A stretch of 64,000 nucleotides of DNA, from assembly GCF_025698945.1 (NCBI RefSeq), contig NZ_JAILWM010000001.1:248001-312000 (forward strand). Direction: 5' to 3'. Origin of the DNA: Nitrosopumilus sp. (GTDB taxonomy: Archaea > Thermoproteota > Nitrososphaeria > Nitrososphaerales > Nitrosopumilaceae). The notes beneath the pieces are model-generated. The model did no database searches. It was not told where the DNA came from and was given only the letters and a program-made list of their open reading frames with translations. The position numbers and the translations under genes are program-made. Position 1 is the first letter of the stretch. The number at the start of each line of letters is the position of its first letter. Shown one piece after another: positions 2,258-41,686 of this stretch.

Positions 2258-2340
2258 ATTTATTGGTATTTGAACCATAAGATCATTCAATCTCAATTCA
2301 ATAAATAATATTTAAAAAAGTGGTTTTGTCAAAACATAAT

Positions 2341-2538
2341 ATGGAATGGTATGATGTTTTTGTTGCAATATTATTTGTGATTGGAGTTACTGCATATCCT
2401 GGCTGGAATCTTGTACTACGCTTAGAATTGAATTTTGAAAATCGGATTAAAATTAAATCAAAACCATCTAAACAAAGTAAAATTAAATCAAAACCATCTA
2501 ACCAAGTTAGCGAATTAGAAAAGATATTTGGAGTTTAA
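2341..2538 (+). CDS. Small single-span membrane protein
   Basis: The ATG at 2341 is preferred to the in-frame GTG at 2320, because a TATA-like TTTAAAAAAG lies directly before the GTG and would place transcription start near 2341. The 65-residue product has one membrane segment (about residues 6-25) followed by a basic tail. The tail contains an exact-looking duplication, KIKSKPSKQS then KIKSKPSNQ, encoded by a 27-base direct repeat around 2450-2503. It ends SELEKIFGV, similar to the end of the small membrane protein at 10711-10929 (FQEIFGL). Function unknown. Confidence 0.55.
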   Translation: MEWYDVFVAILFVIGVTAYPGWNLVLRLELNFENRIKIKSKPSKQSKIKSKPSNQVSELEKIFGV

Positions 2539-2610
2539 TCCTGCATGTCTTTAGAATTCATATGTTAAAATAATGACAGGAATCAAACACTCAACAATTT
2601 CCTAAATACA

Positions 2611-2634
2611 GTTCAAATCTGTATGGGTTGGTAC
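2611..2634. repeat. GTTCAAATC element (dispersed family)
   Basis: GTTCAAATCTGTATGGGTT resembles GTTCAAATCCATATGGATT at 22183. The flanks ATACAG and CTGTAT (2608-2624) can pair around TTCAAAT, like a tRNA T-arm, but no other tRNA part is present. It lies after the stop of the preceding gene. Confidence 0.4.
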
Positions 2635-2679
2635 ATGTGATAGAATATTTTATGAATAACCTGATATGCAAAATAGAAT

Positions 2680-3426
2680 ATGAAAACTAAACTATTGATA
2701 GTTATTGGCATTGCAGTACTAAGTGTAATTGTCTTGGGTGCTAATTTCATGTCTGATAATACACAACAACGCGAACAAAAACTAGATCAAAGTCATCTTG
2801 CAACAGATAGCAAAGGACATTGTGGAGAAAAGTATATTGAAGTTGGAAATGGTGACTGTGTCCTAAATCCTGAATTCATTAAACCAAACACGATCATAAT
2901 TTATGATGTATATGAAAAGAATGGTTCAAGATTATCTCTTGCCCCTCATGATATGGTGATTGATTTGAGAGATGGCAACACTATAACATTTGTCAATGAC
3001 GGACTCAACACTGTTAATATTTTTGATAACTCTCAAGGACTATGGAGTTTTGAGAACGTAGAACCTTCATCTGAGAGGGAATTGGTCATAAATGGTACTG
3101 GATTTTATAAAATCCTGGTCCAAAATTCCAGAGAGGGAGAGAGCGGTAGAATAGTTGCATTGTCTGATAAGACAAACTATCTTCCAGTTGAGACAAAGGC
3201 TAAAATGGCACAAACAATTGTTGGCAGTGATTTTAGAAAAAATGTTGGTTTGCTTGGTGTTGGAAGCGGTGGTGCAGAGCCTGGAATTACAATTGGCATT
3301 CATGAAAAATTCCAAGATGAACCTAATGCAGAACAATTCTATTATGAAAAATACAAGAACATGATTCCATTTGACGTTCCCATTTGGATTAAATTTCATG
3401 CTCCAATAGTAGCGCAAACTGGATGA
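2680..3426 (+). CDS. Secreted/anchored degenerate cupredoxin-like protein
   Basis: The 248-residue protein starts MKTKLLIVIG, the common start cassette of this region, with a hydrophobic segment at residues 4-23. After a Cys pair (HCGEKYIEVGNGDC) comes a cupredoxin-like sandwich of about residues 80-165, visible as LRDGNTITFVNDGLNTVNIF and a closing GFYKILVQ...GRIVAL. The usual copper ligands are not evident: Asn takes the first His position and there is no Cys in the final loop. It is therefore likely a structural or binding domain, not an electron carrier. The gene leads directly to the two small genes that follow. Confidence 0.7.
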   Translation: MKTKLLIVIGIAVLSVIVLGANFMSDNTQQREQKLDQSHLATDSKGHCGEKYIEVGNGDCVLNPEFIKPNTIIIYDVYEKNGSRLSLAPHDMVIDLRDGNTITFVNDGLNTVNIFDNSQGLWSFENVEPSSERELVINGTGFYKILVQNSREGESGRIVALSDKTNYLPVETKAKMAQTIVGSDFRKNVGLLGVGSGGAEPGITIGIHEKFQDEPNAEQFYYEKYKNMIPFDVPIWIKFHAPIVAQTG

Positions 3427-17420: not shown

Positions 17421-19733
17421 ATGAAAATTGTTCATTTTGTGTTGGGATTTTTTGCTTTATTCATAGTTGCAATTATGATCGGTTCAGTTTCAAACGCCTA
17501 TGCAATCACTGATTTTACACCCCTTCAAAATATCAGTAACAATTCTCATGATTCTATTGCACCTTTTGTGGTAACTGACGGAAAAAATATCTTCATTACG
17601 TGGTCTGAATTCACATCTGCACATAAAAGTTCAGATATCCTTATTTCAAAAAGTACTGACGGCGGGGTTACATTCAGCACCCCAAAAAATATCAGTAACA
17701 ATTCTGGTGCCTCTACTACTCCCTTTGCCATAGTGGATGGAGCAAATATTTTCATCGCCTGGACATACAGATATCAAGATGACAGTCATTCTGAAATCTA
17801 CTTTTCAAAAAGTACAGATGGGGGCAATACGTTTAGCACTCCACAAAAAATAAGTAATGACTCATCTTTTTCATCTTTGCCTTTTTTGACTATTGATGGA
17901 AAAAATATTTTTGTCACGTGGTTTGATATTACATATTCTAACAACAGATCATACAAAAACATGGAAGTATCATTTTCAAAAAGTATTGACGGAGGAGATA
18001 CATTCAGTGAGCCAAAAAATATTAGCAATAATGAGGGATTTTCCTCATTCCCCTCAATTGCAAGTGATGGCACAAATCTCTTTGTTGCATGGCAAGATAA
18101 TACGTCCCTGAGCAACACAGACATACTTGTCTCAAAAAGCACTGATGGCGGTGCAACATTTAGCACTCCATTAAACATCAGCAACAGCGATGATGGCTCA
18201 GTTGGAGCTCATGTTGCTACTGATGGCACAAACATTTTTGTCACGTGGTTTGAATTTCACAATGGAAGTGGTGATGTGTTTTTTGCAAAAAGCACTGATG
18301 GCGGTGCAACATTTAGCACTCCCCAAAACATTAGCAATAACAAAGAAAACTCTGTTACACCATTTATGATTACGAACGGTACAACCATCTATATTACTTG
18401 GACTGATTCAACATCAAAAGACAGCTGGATAGTCTTGTCTAACAGCACTGATGGCGGTGCAACATTTAGCACTACACAAAAAATAAGTAATGATAATGGA
18501 TTTTCAGATGGACAATCATTTACTACTGATGGCACAAATCTCTTTGTCACATGGGAGTATCGTCAGTTGTTAACATCCCCCTTGGATGTTTTTTTCTCAA
18601 AATCAAACCAGAATCAAATAGAGACACATGAAGAATCACCAGAAAATCCACTCCTTGATGAATTCTCGCAAATTTCTGATGCAGAACAAATCCCAGACTC
18701 GTATACAGAGATTCCAAACTACACAATAGGCACAGTAGAATGGGTTGACTCCACACCTCGTCTTGGAGGCTATGGTGTTGTAAAGATAACAGATCCTGAC
18801 ATGAACATCAATCCAGACAGAGTCGACATATTCACAGCAAAGGCATGGTCAAAAACAGATCTCACTGGAATCAATTTAGACATGATTGAAAGTGGACAAA
18901 ATACTGGTGTTTTCTATATTGATATTGAATTCACCTCTGAAAAATCTGGCATACAAATGCTCAAAACCATTCCAGGAGATGTGGTGACAGTATCCTATCT
19001 TGATTCAACAACACCTGGAGGCAAAGAAATTGAATTGATTGATAGCATGGATATCACTTTAGATTATGTTTCACCACATAAACAGCTAAAATTAGGAATT
19101 TCTATTGATGAAATGCAATGCAAAGAAAATCTTGTTCTAATTCAGAGACATGATGGTTCTCCTGCATGTGTCACTGAATCAACCAAACAGAAACTAATTG
19201 AGAGAGGATGGACTGGCTTAACTCTGACAACAAAAGAATCTTTATTGAAACGTTACAGTAACCTGCCAGAAGTAATGGCATTTTATGAAACATATTCAGA
19301 CGCAGAAGCTTCAGTAAAGAATGATCATGTATCTTATTTTGCAGGAAACGAAGATGATTTTCGCATTAGGATGGATTTGGAATTTAACAAAAACTTTAAG
19401 GTAGAAAATATGGAGCTTCATTGCTATGTGAAAAGAGTCCATCAAAATGATGTACCTCAATCATTCATTCTAAAATATTTGAAAGACTATACGTGTGATG
19501 AGAATGGTTCACAGAGAACTGGAAATATTCAGATTAGAGGAGACATGGCTGATCAAATCTGTTCTGTTATCGATTATGAATGTCCTTCATATTTCATTGG
19601 AAACATGCAAGAAGATGGCTCTATAATTGCGTTAATCACCTCTTGGGATGCAGATACAGAAACAGAAAAACAATTTGTGTTTATTATTAAAAATGACACT
19701 CTGAGTTACGATGTAACGACAAATGAAAACTAG
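17421..19733 (+). CDS. Large secreted beta-propeller (BNR/Asp-box) protein
   Basis: A 770-residue protein with a signal peptide ending NAYA. Residues about 30-390 contain six Asp boxes of the form STDGGATF, spaced 50-60 residues apart, each followed by STPxNISN. With the split first strand this predicts a seven-bladed propeller of the sialidase/BNR type. Catalytic sialidase residues are not evident. A domain with DPDMNINPD and ESGQNTGVFYIDI follows, as in the 12044-13945 protein, then the two-Cys/RGW module at about 550-598 and a C-terminal domain with several Cys. The final codons overlap the next start by 11 bases. Confidence 0.8.
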   Translation: MKIVHFVLGFFALFIVAIMIGSVSNAYAITDFTPLQNISNNSHDSIAPFVVTDGKNIFITWSEFTSAHKSSDILISKSTDGGVTFSTPKNISNNSGASTTPFAIVDGANIFIAWTYRYQDDSHSEIYFSKSTDGGNTFSTPQKISNDSSFSSLPFLTIDGKNIFVTWFDITYSNNRSYKNMEVSFSKSIDGGDTFSEPKNISNNEGFSSFPSIASDGTNLFVAWQDNTSLSNTDILVSKSTDGGATFSTPLNISNSDDGSVGAHVATDGTNIFVTWFEFHNGSGDVFFAKSTDGGATFSTPQNISNNKENSVTPFMITNGTTIYITWTDSTSKDSWIVLSNSTDGGATFSTTQKISNDNGFSDGQSFTTDGTNLFVTWEYRQLLTSPLDVFFSKSNQNQIETHEESPENPLLDEFSQISDAEQIPDSYTEIPNYTIGTVEWVDSTPRLGGYGVVKITDPDMNINPDRVDIFTAKAWSKTDLTGINLDMIESGQNTGVFYIDIEFTSEKSGIQMLKTIPGDVVTVSYLDSTTPGGKEIELIDSMDITLDYVSPHKQLKLGISIDEMQCKENLVLIQRHDGSPACVTESTKQKLIERGWTGLTLTTKESLLKRYSNLPEVMAFYETYSDAEASVKNDHVSYFAGNEDDFRIRMDLEFNKNFKVENMELHCYVKRVHQNDVPQSFILKYLKDYTCDENGSQRTGNIQIRGDMADQICSVIDYECPSYFIGNMQEDGSIIALITSWDADTETEKQFVFIIKNDTLSYDVTTNEN
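18138..18473 (+). repeat. Three blades with an identical 30-base core
   Basis: The same 30-base sequence encoding STDGGATFST occurs at 18138-18167, 18291-18320 and 18444-18473. The exact 153-base spacing indicates recent tandem duplication or homogenisation of propeller blades. Confidence 0.8.
19119..19171 (+). repeat. 53-bp block identical to 23068-23120
   Basis: The block encodes the heart of the two-Cys module (CKENLVLIQRHDGSPACV) and is base-for-base identical in the 17421 and 22255 genes, while the flanks differ. Confidence 0.85.
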
Positions 19734-22261: not shown

Positions 22262-23178
22262 GTTTAGCTATTTTTTTTGGTCTTGTTGGTGTGATGGTAT
22301 TTTCACCCGTATTTGGATCATCTGAGACTCCGGAAGAATTTATCTATGTTCTACAAGGAGCACAAAATGAAAGCTGCAAGTTCAATGATACATGCTTTAA
22401 CCCCTCAACACTTGTAGTTTCGCCCAACACCAAAGTTACATGGGTTGCTCAGGAATCCGGACATAAGATATCTAGTGGCATTCGTACACAAACTGATGTT
22501 GGAATAAATACTGATTTTGATGGAGAATTTCAAAGTAATTATCTTAATGCAAATGATACGTTTTCACATGTTTTTACAAAATCTGGAAAATATTCTTTTC
22601 ATAGCTGGATATTTGGCCATGCAAGTGGGCAAGTTATAGTTACAAAATCAAATGACTCTCCAGTTTATTCTGCTGAAAAATGTGATTTGCTTCACGACTT
22701 GAAAATTTATGAAAATCTTTTACATAATGACGTTGTTGTAAGGACGTTTCTTTCCAAATATCCAAACGCGGTATCTTTTGTAAATGGAATTGATGAATCC
22801 AGTCCACTAAAAGCACCTATTGTTTACGAAGATGGAACAGGTGACAAAAAAGTATTTCTTGTCGTATATGTCCGAGAAGAAGGTGTCCTGTCAACTGACT
22901 GCTTTTCGCCTGTAATTTACACATACAAGTATTACAAAGACAACAAACCTGCGAGTCTACAATACTATTACAATGAAAAACAACTCATGGTTGATTTTCT
23001 AAATAATCACATCATACACAGTCCATTAAAACAGCATACATTCGGAATCCCATTTGATGAAATACAGTGCAAAGAAAATCTTGTTCTAATTCAGAGACAT
23101 GATGGTTCTCCTGCATGTGTAAAACCAGAGTCAATTAACATTCTTGTTCATAGAGGATGGGCTGATGGGTATTTCTAA
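22255..23178 (+). CDS. Secreted cupredoxin-like protein with unusual His-rich site
   Basis: The 307-residue protein has a signal peptide ending PVFGS. Residues about 38-128 form a cupredoxin-like domain. It has KVTWVAQESGHKISSG for the first His, and KYSFHSWIFGHASGQVIV, where His replaces the usual Cys and a second His lies six residues on. The next domain (NDVVVRTFLSKYPNAVSF...CFSPVIYTY) is shared with the 6846-8306 protein. It ends with the two-Cys/RGW module, whose core DNA is identical to that in the 17421 gene. Copper or other metal binding is possible but unproven. Confidence 0.78.
   Translation: MKCLAIFFGLVGVMVFSPVFGSSETPEEFIYVLQGAQNESCKFNDTCFNPSTLVVSPNTKVTWVAQESGHKISSGIRTQTDVGINTDFDGEFQSNYLNANDTFSHVFTKSGKYSFHSWIFGHASGQVIVTKSNDSPVYSAEKCDLLHDLKIYENLLHNDVVVRTFLSKYPNAVSFVNGIDESSPLKAPIVYEDGTGDKKVFLVVYVREEGVLSTDCFSPVIYTYKYYKDNKPASLQYYYNEKQLMVDFLNNHIIHSPLKQHTFGIPFDEIQCKENLVLIQRHDGSPACVKPESINILVHRGWADGYF
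23068..23120 (+). repeat. 53-bp block identical to 19119-19171
   Basis: This is the second copy of the identical two-Cys module core, near the 3' end of the 22255 gene. Confidence 0.85.
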
Positions 23179-26299: not shown

Positions 26300-27226
26300 C
26301 TATCGAACTATTTTCCCGTCAGCAACTTGAAATTCCAAATAGACTGTATAGTGTGGAATGTCATTCTGTTTTGCTGTAAATGTGTAAATGCCATCCTGAC
26401 TCCATGAAGAATCTACAACAACACTAGTTCGAAACTCTCCCTCAACAGGGGCAAATGCTGTCCATGTGGATACATCATTGCCATCAGTAGTTATAACAAA
26501 AGTAATTTCTGAATCTACCCTGTCAGTCTTTCCTACAAACTCCAAGGAATAATCATCAAGATGGTTCATTGTGTAAAGCTCAATTCCGGAAATCTTTATC
26601 ATCTCTGCATTCTCATCAATGGAAAATCGCTTTCCATCAAGAGTTCTGCATTCTAGTATTGGCCAGTTTGAGACATCGGTGAAATGGGAAGCCTCTTGGC
26701 ACTCATAAAATGACTGGACATTTGGAGCAATACAATCTACAAAGACATTGGCGTTTCCAAATCTTGCAGAACCAAGATCCCCCTCAATTGGGTTATACAG
26801 GGAGACTGAGACGCCAGAATACCCGTCTACTGTAACTCTTTCAATGTGTTCCAAGTCTAAATCAAATCCGCGAGTGGGATAGTAGCCGCCATTAACCAGA
26901 ATATGGGTTTTTTCAGAACATGTCTCTTTTATGGTACCAGATGTATGGCCATCAATTTTCCAAGATCCATGATTGGCATGAGGAAACGCCCATCCACGAG
27001 ATACCAGTTCGCGTAAAGTATCAGGGGATACACATGCAGTCTTTGAGTTGTCTACTTTGTATGCTGTAAACATTCCAAAATTACAATCTCTTGCCAATGA
27101 GACATTTTCTACAATTACGTAATCATCAAGATTTGCAACGATTCCTCCATGTGAAGAGGATTCTTGAGCAAATGCAGTACCTGCAAAAATAGGAATCAAC
27201 AATAATGCATACAGTAAACGGTTCAT
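26300..27226 (-). CDS. Secreted protein with N-terminal two-Cys/RGW module
   Basis: The 308-residue protein has a signal peptide ending TAFA. Residues about 37-86 hold the shared module, ENVSLARDCNFGMF...KTACVSPDTLRELVSRGWAF, at the N-terminus instead of the C-terminus. Two beta domains follow: one with several Cys (VFVDCIAPNVQSFYECQEAS...LECRTLDGKRF), then an Ig-like C-terminal domain (FRTSVVVDSSWSQDGIYTFT...VYLEFQVADGKIVR). Its own start (MNRLLYALLLIP) differs from the cassette, consistent with it being first in the array. Function unknown. Confidence 0.72.
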   Translation of the reverse strand: MNRLLYALLLIPIFAGTAFAQESSSHGGIVANLDDYVIVENVSLARDCNFGMFTAYKVDNSKTACVSPDTLRELVSRGWAFPHANHGSWKIDGHTSGTIKETCSEKTHILVNGGYYPTRGFDLDLEHIERVTVDGYSGVSVSLYNPIEGDLGSARFGNANVFVDCIAPNVQSFYECQEASHFTDVSNWPILECRTLDGKRFSIDENAEMIKISGIELYTMNHLDDYSLEFVGKTDRVDSEITFVITTDGNDVSTWTAFAPVEGEFRTSVVVDSSWSQDGIYTFTAKQNDIPHYTVYLEFQVADGKIVR

Positions 27227-38436: not shown

Positions 38437-39573
38437 TTAAGAGATCTCGTTTCTGAGTTTCTTTGTAATTGTAACTTCGACATTATCAAACAATACCAAC
38501 ATCTTATCTTTATTTTCAATAAGATAGTCTTGACCTCTGTCCTTTAATCTAATCTTCCATAATCTAATCTCTCTGTGTTCATCAAAGAAATTCTCAATCA
38601 TTTGTTCTCCTGATTTACTTGGATCAATAAATTCATCAAAAATCTCAATTGTTTTATCTACATCTTCTTCTTCTATTGCTTCTCTAACTGATTGAATTGC
38701 TTGACTCAATTCTTTCAAATTCTTTACTGGTTTAGGTAATCTCTTCTTTGTAATTCCGAATAATCCTTTCTTTTCTTTTCCCATTTTTTCTGCAATGTTG
38801 GGTGCAAGATCATAAATTGGTATTTTACTTAGGCCATCACGTTTTTCATTTTGTATGATCAAACCTTTTTCTAATAATTTTCTTAATGCGCTTTCTGCAT
38901 CTGCTTTATCAAGAAATGTTGTCCAGACAATTGCACCTAATGTATGGTATCCTTGTCTTATTGATTCCAAAACTACGACTTCTTGAATTCTCTTAAAGCC
39001 TTCTTCGATTCTGACATTTGCAAAGTCTTTATCTCTAATTGATTTTCTTGCATTTTTTACATCGATTTCTATCGAACGCTTTAATGCCTCAAGTGATTCT
39101 GGTACTTGATTAAGTAAAGAAAGAAAACATGCTTTGTTATACCATGCCATTCCGTAAGTTGGATCTGACTCTATAGCTTTTTCAACTGAATCAAGTGCTT
39201 TTGAATAATTTTTTTGTTCATAATGTACTAATCCTTTGAGATTCCAAGCTTCTGGATTTGTGACATCTATATCTAAAATTCTGTCATAAATTTTTAGAGC
39301 CTCTCCATGATCATCTATATGGAATCTGGCATATCCTAATTTCATCAAAGTTTCAACATTATTTGGATCAATTCTTAGTGCTTGTTCAAAAACTACAATT
39401 GCATCTTCTAATTTTTCATCTGCCATCAAATTGATGCCTTTTTTGAATAATTTTTTACGATTATAATCCGAATCAACTATGCTTGTTTCTTCAAATTCTT
39501 CTTTTTTTGAGATTGATTCTTCGGGATCCTTTGATTTTTTACTGAAAGGCTTTTTCACTAGCTCAAAATGCAA
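38437..39573 (-). CDS. TPR-repeat protein
   Basis: In this 378-residue protein, residues about 40-180 form four tetratricopeptide repeats: KLEDAIVVFEQALRIDPNNV, EALKIYDRILDIDVTNPEAW, KALDSVEKAIESDPTYGMAW and a last one at SLEALKRSIEIDV. A winged-helix-like part follows (LGAIVWTTFLDKADAESALRKLLEKGLI, split by charged turns), then a charged C-terminal domain. The N-terminal 35 residues are basic and disordered. It meets the rhodanese gene tail-to-tail with no spacer. Likely a protein-protein scaffold, with possible DNA contact through the winged-helix-like part. Confidence 0.8.
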   Translation of the reverse strand: MHFELVKKPFSKKSKDPEESISKKEEFEETSIVDSDYNRKKLFKKGINLMADEKLEDAIVVFEQALRIDPNNVETLMKLGYARFHIDDHGEALKIYDRILDIDVTNPEAWNLKGLVHYEQKNYSKALDSVEKAIESDPTYGMAWYNKACFLSLLNQVPESLEALKRSIEIDVKNARKSIRDKDFANVRIEEGFKRIQEVVVLESIRQGYHTLGAIVWTTFLDKADAESALRKLLEKGLIIQNEKRDGLSKIPIYDLAPNIAEKMGKEKKGLFGITKKRLPKPVKNLKELSQAIQSVREAIEEEDVDKTIEIFDEFIDPSKSGEQMIENFFDEHREIRLWKIRLKDRGQDYLIENKDKMLVLFDNVEVTITKKLRNEIS

Positions 39574-39684
39574 TTTTATCTAGATAAATACTATCCCCAA
39601 CGAGCCTACTGGTTCCCTTGCGTAAATCAATGATAGTCTTCAGCGATCTAAATACAGAAATACTTGGAATATACACAAACGTTT

Positions 39685-41319
39685 GTGTCATCTCAGTCAC
39701 GATTAGAAATTCAAGGACAGGCACCATTTAAGCAATCAGGTGTTTATGAAGTTCAAATTGCAATTACAGATAGTAAACCATCTGATGAATCTGTAAGAAC
39801 TAAACAATTTCAATCATTATGGAGAGGAAATTTTCATCTTAGAGTAAAGGATGGGATTTTTACTGAAACAATTGGCTCTCCTGAAAACCCTCTTCCCTCA
39901 TCAATTGAATCATTAGATAAAATTTGGATTGTTGTAACTGATCTTTTCTCTTCATTACATTCTGTTTTCGATGTCTCTTTAGGAAAACCAAAAAGAACAC
40001 CAAAACCTGAAACTGATTCAGAAACTGATTCTGAATCTATTACTGAAACTCCAACAAAACGTTCAACTAAATCTCGTTCTAGTTATGATGATTATCAAGG
40101 TTCATCTGGATTGCAAGGAAACAAAGGACCTGATGGTCCACGTGGTCCTCCCGGTGACAAAGGACCTATGGGTCCACCCGGCCCTCAAGGTCCTCCAGGT
40201 GGTAAAGGACCTGATGGTCCTCAAGGACCAACTGGTGACAAAGGACCAACTGGTGACAAAGGACCAACTGGTGACAAAGGACTTTCAGGAGAAAAAGGAA
40301 TTACAGGAGAAAAAGGAATTACTGGTGATAAAGGAGATAAAGGTGACAAAGGACCAACTGGTCCTCCAGGAGATAAAGGTGACAAAGGTTCTACTGGTCC
40401 AATTGGTGACAAAGGACCCACAGGATTAAAGGGTCCAATAGGTCCACCCGGAGAAAAAGGACCAACTGGAAGTTCGGGTGACAAAGGTTCAACTGGACTT
40501 AGAGGTCCTCCGGGAGAAAAAGGAGATAAAGGTGCACAAGGACCAACTGGCGATAAAGGATTAACCGGACCAACTGGTCCACCCGGAGAAAAAGGCCCAA
40601 CAGGACTTAGTGGTGTTCAAGGAGAAAAAGGAATTCAAGGTCCTCCTGGTCCCGTTGGCGAAAAAGGTCCAGTAGGTCCACCCGGAGAAAAAGGTCCAAT
40701 AGGTCCACCTGGTCCACATGGCGATAAAGGATTAACCGGTCCAACTGGTCCTTTGGGTGACAAAGGTCCAATAGGTCCACCTGGTCCAATTGGAGAAAAA
40801 GGAAGTAAAGGTCCTGAAGGTCCTGTTGGCGAAAAAGGCCCACAAGGCCCACAAGGTCCAGCTGGGTCTAAGGGATTAACAGGAGTTCCAGGTCCACAAG
40901 GAGAAAAAGGAGAAAAAGGTCCAACCGGTCCAATTGGCGAAAAAGGTCAAACTGGTTCTACAGGTCCTCCCGGTGACAAAGGTCCACAAGGCCCACAAGG
41001 CCCACAAGGTGAACGTGGTACAACTGGTCCTGCAGGAGAAAAAGGCCCACAAGGCCCACAAGGAATTCAAGGCCCACAAGGAGAAAGAGGTCCTACCGGT
41101 CCAATTGGATCTGTTGGAGAACAAGGTCCACCCGGAGGACAAGGTCCAGTAGGTCCACCCGGTCCTAGAGGTCCACCCGGTCCACCCGGAGAAAAAGGTC
41201 CATCTGGAGGAATGTCTTCAGAACAAAAAGCAATCTTCAAAGATTTGTTAGAAATTTTAACTAACAAAAATATCATATCTACTGAAGAACAAATAAAATT
41301 GATGAGCTATCTTTACTAA
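39685..41319 (+). CDS. Collagen-like Gly-X-Y repeat protein
   Basis: I prefer the GTG at 39685 (starting [10 protein letters not shown] after Met); a TTG at 39664 gives seven more residues. The order is an N-terminal globular domain of about 110 residues ([14 protein letters not shown]...[15 protein letters not shown]), an acidic Ser/Thr linker, then about 370 residues of unbroken collagen-type triplets rich in G-E-K-G-P and G-P-P-G. A 38-residue C-terminal segment ([19 protein letters not shown]) could be a trimerisation helix. No signal peptide is visible, so export is uncertain. Lys-Gly-Glu/Asp triplets can stabilise the triple helix without hydroxyproline. Confidence 0.85.
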
Positions 41320-41431: not shown

Positions 41432-41686
41432 TTATCGTCTTTTCTTTGCTGCAGTTTTTCTCTTAGGAGCGGCTTTGCGTTTTGCTGCCTTTCTCTTAGG
41501 AGCTGCTTTCTTTGCTGCAGTTTTTCTCTTAGGAGCTGCTTTGCGTTTTGCTGCCTTTCTCTTAGGAGCTGCTTTCTTTGCTGCAGTTTTTCTCTTAGGA
41601 GCGGCTTTGCGTTTTGCTGCCTTTCTCTTAGGAGCTGCTTTCTTTGCTGATTTTCGTTTAGTTGCAGCTTTTCTTTTTGTAGCCAT
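41432..41686 (-). CDS. Histone H1-like Lys/Ala/Pro-rich protein
   Basis: The 84-residue protein is made of K-R-K-A-A and K-A-A-P-K-R-K units with no acidic residue. Three perfect 22-residue repeats (KKAAPKRKAAKRKAAPKRKT plus AA) occupy residues 15-80, between a 14-residue head and a KKRR tail. Composition and repeat style match the H1-like C-terminal tails that compact DNA in eukaryotes and some bacteria. It is convergent to the collagen-like gene. A nucleoid or nucleic-acid-binding role is inferred from charge alone. Confidence 0.75.
   Translation of the reverse strand: MATKRKAATKRKSAKKAAPKRKAAKRKAAPKRKTAAKKAAPKRKAAKRKAAPKRKTAAKKAAPKRKAAKRKAAPKRKTAAKKRR
41447..41644 (-). repeat. Three tandem 66-bp repeats
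   Basis: The H1-like gene contains three in-frame 66-bp units that are nearly identical at the DNA level (for example GCGGCTTTGCG versus GCTGCTTTGCG). Copy number is likely to vary between strains. Confidence 0.85.

Follow-up and report, generated by a model that had tools for sequence, protein, structure and literature searches.

A 64,000 nt stretch of a Nitrosopumilus sp. contig (the window) carries at 39685-41319 an archaeal collagen-like ORF, the parts of which are given in Table 1 along with a motif upstream of it and the divergently oriented neighbouring gene. The ORF is confirmed as real, with a repeat far beyond chance: PF01391 (Collagen) matches the protein at E = 9.1e-60 (198.7 bits against a curated 27.2) and was the sole family found in a Pfam scan. 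The initial annotation had put the unbroken Gly-X-Y region at about 370 residues, and the count agrees with this. Proline fills 49% of the X and 14% of the Y positions (78 Pro among the 372 residues), there are 16 GPP triplets, and the net charge of the repeat is +4. It had also been suggested that Lys-Glu/Asp pairs stabilize the helix, which holds in part: as many as 33 of the 124 triplets are of the charge-paired G-(E/D)-(K/R) type, but the K/R-G-E/D order between triplets, a strongly stabilizing axial pair in collagen, occurs just five times.

Table 1. Features of the collagen-like gene and its upstream flank, in window coordinates.
Feature	Position	Strand	Description
Collagen-like gene	39685..41319	+	544 aa, GTG start, TAA ends at 41319
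N-domain	39685..39984	+	100 residues; predicted six-strand beta sandwich; no named family
Linker	39985..40098	+	38 residues, charged, variable
Gly-X-Y region	40099..41214	+	124 uninterrupted triplets (372 residues)
C-tail	41215..41316	+	34 residues; predicted helical hairpin
Promoter-like motif AAATACAGAAATACTTG	39650..39666	+	18 bases upstream of start codon
TPR protein gene (divergent neighbor)	38437..39573	-	Pfam TPR

Orthologous ORFs numbered 151, of which 112 were distinct, and the removal of 28 that were truncated or contained undetermined bases (L043 and L052 among them) left 84 gap-free sequences. A single unbroken run of 69–185 triplets is present in 82 of these 84, so the repeat region, whose breakage in relatives would have spoken against the initial annotation, is intact in nearly all of them. 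Together, the 83 run-bearing ORFs contain 9,776 triplets (median 123, quartiles 109.5 and 124), and 40 ORFs have 122–126. Twenty loci, some of them identical to one another, have exactly 124 triplets; in these, the X and Y residues differ from those of the window at 22–77% of positions (mean 32%) while glycine is retained throughout at every third residue. The order of triplets is conserved too: of 30 loci aligned triplet by triplet to the window protein, 29 scored well above eight controls with shuffled triplets, and the sole exception was the frame-changed locus (L157). Disruptions take several forms: in G006 the run ends after 18 triplets through a frame change, with the C-tail present further on; in G090 the N-domain is spread over different frames and there is no triplet run; and L043, one of the ORFs removed before the count, has runs of 10 and 22 triplets and another kind of C-terminus. 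Linkers vary from 20 to 135 residues in relatives. In the largest orthologue found (L040:5326-8193, 185 triplets), a long Ala-Pro-Gln repeat replaces the charged linker seen in most others. Indels are present and the rod length differs among genera, and the span of 69–185 triplets weakens the idea of a strict ruler. An apparent 20-triplet length step (84/104/124/143/163) was dropped because a fuller histogram fills the gaps (107–120, 139–142).

The ORF tool proposed an earlier TTG start (39664), which overlaps the conserved promoter-like motif AAATACAGAAATACTTG. The first 16 bases of this motif recur with at most two mismatches in 56/61 orthologous loci, and the spacing between the motif and the N-domain is near-constant across loci; the five weaker cases include L043, L052, L053 and L056, with 4–7 mismatches. 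In its own genome there is one exact copy, and 34 copies with up to two mismatches against 11 for a reversed control pattern. We infer that the motif acts as a promoter. Stops at most 18 residues ahead of the GxxPF motif of the N-domain are present in 28 of the 83 distinct ORFs, so translation must start near this domain and a signal peptide has no room. The absence of a signal peptide noted in the initial annotation was borne out by inspection and hydropathy, which revealed no hydrophobic N-terminal stretch in the orthologous ORFs and no transmembrane stretch or anchor in the collagen-like protein. The eight highest hydropathy peaks (15-residue) among the 83 distinct ORFs all fall within the N-domain, and none of the 83 has an LPXTG motif. 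The same genome encodes a second collagen-like ORF (L059:2739-6290, minus strand; 1,183 aa) with short triplet runs, DUF11, a MopE-type metal-binding motif and a lamin-tail domain. It has a signal-peptide-like start, which indicates that the cell exports one collagen-like protein by the usual way, and judging by its sequence the product is likely to be a conventional surface protein.

AF2 predicts a six-strand beta sandwich plus two short helices for the N-domain (pLDDT 90.8) and, from a single chain, a helical hairpin for the C-tail (pLDDT 92.4), in line with the folded N-terminal domain and helical C-terminus described earlier. The N-domain was aligned in sets of 28 and 29 sequences, and a 24-sequence alignment of the C-tail has eight invariant columns. 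When 29 members of the N-domain were compared with Pfam, five families were matched by one member each, at chance level (best E = 0.03), and the best match to PDB sequences had E = 0.4; the C-tail matched nothing in Pfam, and its best E-value against PDB sequences was 2.2. A Foldseek search with the N-domain gave nothing at E ≤ 0.001 in the PDB or among viral models. Two indications of a fold relationship to SgrA were not trusted. One is the best Foldseek PDB match (5fce, E = 0.12), and the other a VIA-align match to the ligand-binding region of this enterococcal protein (Z 7.2, rmsd 3.2, 87 aligned), to which unrelated beta sandwiches came nearly equal; this Z value may reflect just a common arrangement. 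The N-domain may resemble a beta domain that is common in bacteria.

A search with the N-domain gave matches in 167/200 Nitrosopumilaceae genomes, covering all 22 genera, and in 111/119 genomes of good quality (completeness ≥ 90%, contamination ≤ 5%). Two of the 167 genomes have two matches and the remainder have one. A phylum-wide draw of 398 genomes placed the domain in 60/63 genomes of the family and in 0/335 others. A separate scan, which reaches close relatives only, detected 59 loci, mostly in Nitrosopumilus and Nitrosarchaeum, along with one in Nitrososphaeraceae and one in Phycisphaerae that may be mislabelled or contaminants. The C-tail profile has one match per genome in 49/61 family genomes, 39/44 good ones and 21/22 genera, and a recognizable C-tail was found in none of three genomes of genus g5; in the genome of the window the gene itself is matched at 5.4e-26 and the next match is at 0.36.

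Ten of the 33 family genomes without an N-domain match were inspected via the TPR neighbour. In six (G056, G106, G029, G195, G108 and G189) the contig stops inside the TPR gene or, on the collagen side, within about 250 bases of it (at the contig edge of G106 the beginning of the N-domain is visible), and in three (G146, G164 and G045) the TPR orthologue is also missing. G087 has 1.1 kb on the collagen side of the TPR gene, with another ORF in place, and seems to be a true absence of the gene and a candidate natural loss, so the collagen-like gene is not strictly essential. The ORF beside the TPR gene at the expected collagen site of G087 (L161:404-1054) encodes 216 aa and is methyltransferase-like by reading.

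Gene order was compared over 40 loci: 15 kb cut from the window, and 39 others measuring 7.9–13 kb. The order sulfite/nitrite reductase, rhodanese, TPR, collagen gene, GTPase, HAD and ArgRS recurs across genera, where the names of neighbours other than TPR come from reading the proteins; the TPR and GTPase genes are on the strand opposite to the collagen gene. The TPR gene is present in 39/40 loci (absent from L041 and 3.4 kb distant in L039), the GTPase gene in 37/40 (not seen in L050, L055 and L056), and there are local rearrangements, e.g., in L048. The collagen-like gene is a near-universal, mostly single-copy and syntenic core gene of one archaeal family. The non-TPR half of the TPR protein matches 39/250 genomes, 36 in the family and three from two other families of the order, and the protein occurs in all three sister-family genomes drawn, which makes the TPR gene older than the collagen gene; no ORF with at least six triplets was found near the three sister-family TPR loci.

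Two other kinds of ORF were seen in the window. A Lys/Ala-rich, histone-H1-like ORF of 84 aa with KRKAA repeats (41432-41686, minus strand) consists of 3.2 tandem copies of a 66-base unit (98% matches), the number of which may differ between strains, and in several relatives ORFs resembling it separate the collagen gene from the GTPase gene. A short Cys motif of the type C...HDGSPACV...RGW is common to four ORFs (738-833, 19119-19211 and 23068-23160 on the plus strand, 26990-27085 on the minus strand), and represents a domain, not known to have a name, that is repeated in exported-looking proteins.

How such a protein might work is suggested by its layout. The C-terminal helical hairpins, modelled as single chains, would bring three chains into register and nucleate a trimer, from which the Gly-X-Y part would wind into a stiff homotrimeric rod. 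At the collagen rise of 0.286 nm per residue this rod would be ~106 nm long in the window protein, and ~59–159 nm in relatives. Three N-terminal beta-sandwich heads, ~106 nm from the tail, would then be positioned to bind a partner. A triple helix is likely. The rival view, that the repeat is a disordered, low-complexity spacer between two domains and never triple-helical, is improbable. Proline at 14% of Y, where hydroxylation is not expected, and the scarcity of K/R-G-E/D pairs are consistent with it, but glycine has been kept at every third place over 9,776 triplets despite change at X and Y, and bacterial collagens that lack hydroxyproline still form triple helices (PMC4565658).

With no visible export signal, cytoplasmic assembly and action is the simplest reading: the trimer would form in the cytoplasm and, either within it or on the inner membrane face, most likely serve as a strut or tether. 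We give roughly even chances to the overall picture of a family-specific core structural protein, that is, a trimeric rod registered by its C-tails and serving as a cytoplasmic strut or tether with partner-binding heads, in which the role of strut is itself something we infer. More tentatively, and on balance rather unlikely to hold, it could be an intracellular collagen acquired by the ancestor of the family and since retained in nearly all members, a cytoskeletal or membrane-tethering strut of the rod-shaped Nitrosopumilaceae that folds with the assistance of a parvulin. The genome of the window encodes a parvulin prolyl isomerase (L221, G000:C1:566807-567034; PF00639, E = 3.6e-24), a relative of the NmPin type. 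Proline isomerization is the limiting step in collagen folding, which makes a parvulin plausible as a folding helper, and L221 could plausibly aid the folding of this rod. Cells of the Nitrososphaeraceae, by contrast, are cocci (PMC13037477).

The alternative of non-classical export, by which the trimer would serve as an envelope strut or an adhesin, located either in the gap separating membrane from S-layer or on the outside of the cell, is possible if somewhat doubtful. It has a precedent in NmPin of N. maritimus, for which neither a lipid anchor nor a transmembrane helix was detected and which was nonetheless placed on the outer membrane surface; its authors suggested Sec or Tat as a possible carrier and proposed S-layer proteins as substrates (PMC4922055). 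A protein reported to be outside without an anchor makes the cytoplasmic location of the collagen-like protein less certain. In the same direction, 'LPXTG-anchored collagen-like adhesin' proteins of 'Ca. Nitrosotenuis chungbukensis' are candidate orthologues, for which a role at the S-layer has been proposed (PMC13037477). Against export, a signal, anchor and transmembrane stretch are all not visible here, whereas signal-peptide-like starts are found in L059:2739-6290 and in most of the sister-family collagen-like ORFs that were read. An ordinary surface adhesin of the streptococcal or Legionella type, its signal lost or hidden, is highly improbable: the NCBIfam models for Scl2, Scl1 and Lcl do match the repeat (best 231.7 bits), but in the window protein and ten orthologues all scores fall under the curated cut-offs (best 284.5 against 325), LPXTG is missing from all 83 distinct ORFs, and head and tail differ. 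We regard a domesticated virus or phage fibre protein as equally hard to credit. Collagen-like fibres of phages do form in the cytoplasm from proteins that lack signal peptides, and there are weak viral fold matches to the N-domain (best E = 0.007; the BppU N-terminal row at E = 0.28). However, in scans that best reach close relatives, viral contigs gave 13 pattern stretches for the N-domain and 163 for the C-tail with zero relatives of either among them, and the N-domain was not matched in phages, plasmids or PHROGs; the neighbours in the 40 loci are not virion genes.

No description of this collagen-like gene was found among the papers listed in searches of an open-access library. Collagen is regarded as extracellular material, and the Nitrosopumilaceae include abundant marine ammonia oxidizers. 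Should the protein act intracellularly, it would represent a new type of archaeal structural element, in a domain of life where shape control is poorly understood; if exported, it would indicate an undescribed export route. The rod is also a concrete candidate substrate for NmPin, the prolyl isomerase of N. maritimus.

Like Scl1, Scl2 and Lcl (NF038330, NF038329 and NF046116), the window protein is prokaryotic with a long Gly-X-Y repeat, and these models match that repeat. It differs from them in that all 11 proteins scanned score below the cut-offs (for the Scl2/SclB model NF038329, the window protein has the 231.7 bits, the ten orthologues reach at most 284.5, and the curated cut-off is 325), in having neither LPXTG nor a visible signal peptide, and in its unrelated head and tail. 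A pipeline blind to the cut-off could name it an 'LPXTG-anchored collagen-like adhesin', and labels of this type can reflect repeat composition alone. Secreted collagen-like proteins with Gly-X-Y repeats also occur in the same archaeal order (L059:2739-6290, and the sister-family L179, L180, L181, L183 and L185), but these have signal-peptide-like starts, lie at other loci, and carry DUF11/LTD (L059) or no named domains. Collagen-like proteins were found in 3/11 sister-family genomes, and one of them (L184), as read, is without a signal-peptide-like start. Two nearby ORFs of the sister-family genome G497 (L190:259-849 and 2264-3109) have Gly-Asn-Gly and Gly-Gly-Asp repeats and signal-peptide-like starts; they are Gly-rich, but their repeat pattern is not that of collagen.

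In 'Ca. Nitrosotenuis chungbukensis' MY2, 'LPXTG-anchored collagen-like adhesin' proteins were up at low salinity, and one was present in the proteome (PMC13037477). These are collagen-like and of the same archaeal family, but the LPXTG label would not fit an orthologue of the window protein, and they are only candidates for orthology. The spore protein BclA of Bacillus and the collagen-like fibres of phages are likewise triple helices made without a classical signal peptide, although no sequence relation between phage proteins and the window protein was found in viral contigs, phages or PHROGs. We take the known cytoplasmically assembled collagens to be these spore and phage proteins. Prokaryotic collagens as such are already known; what distinguishes this one is the combination, across a whole family, of two unnamed end domains with no visible export signal.
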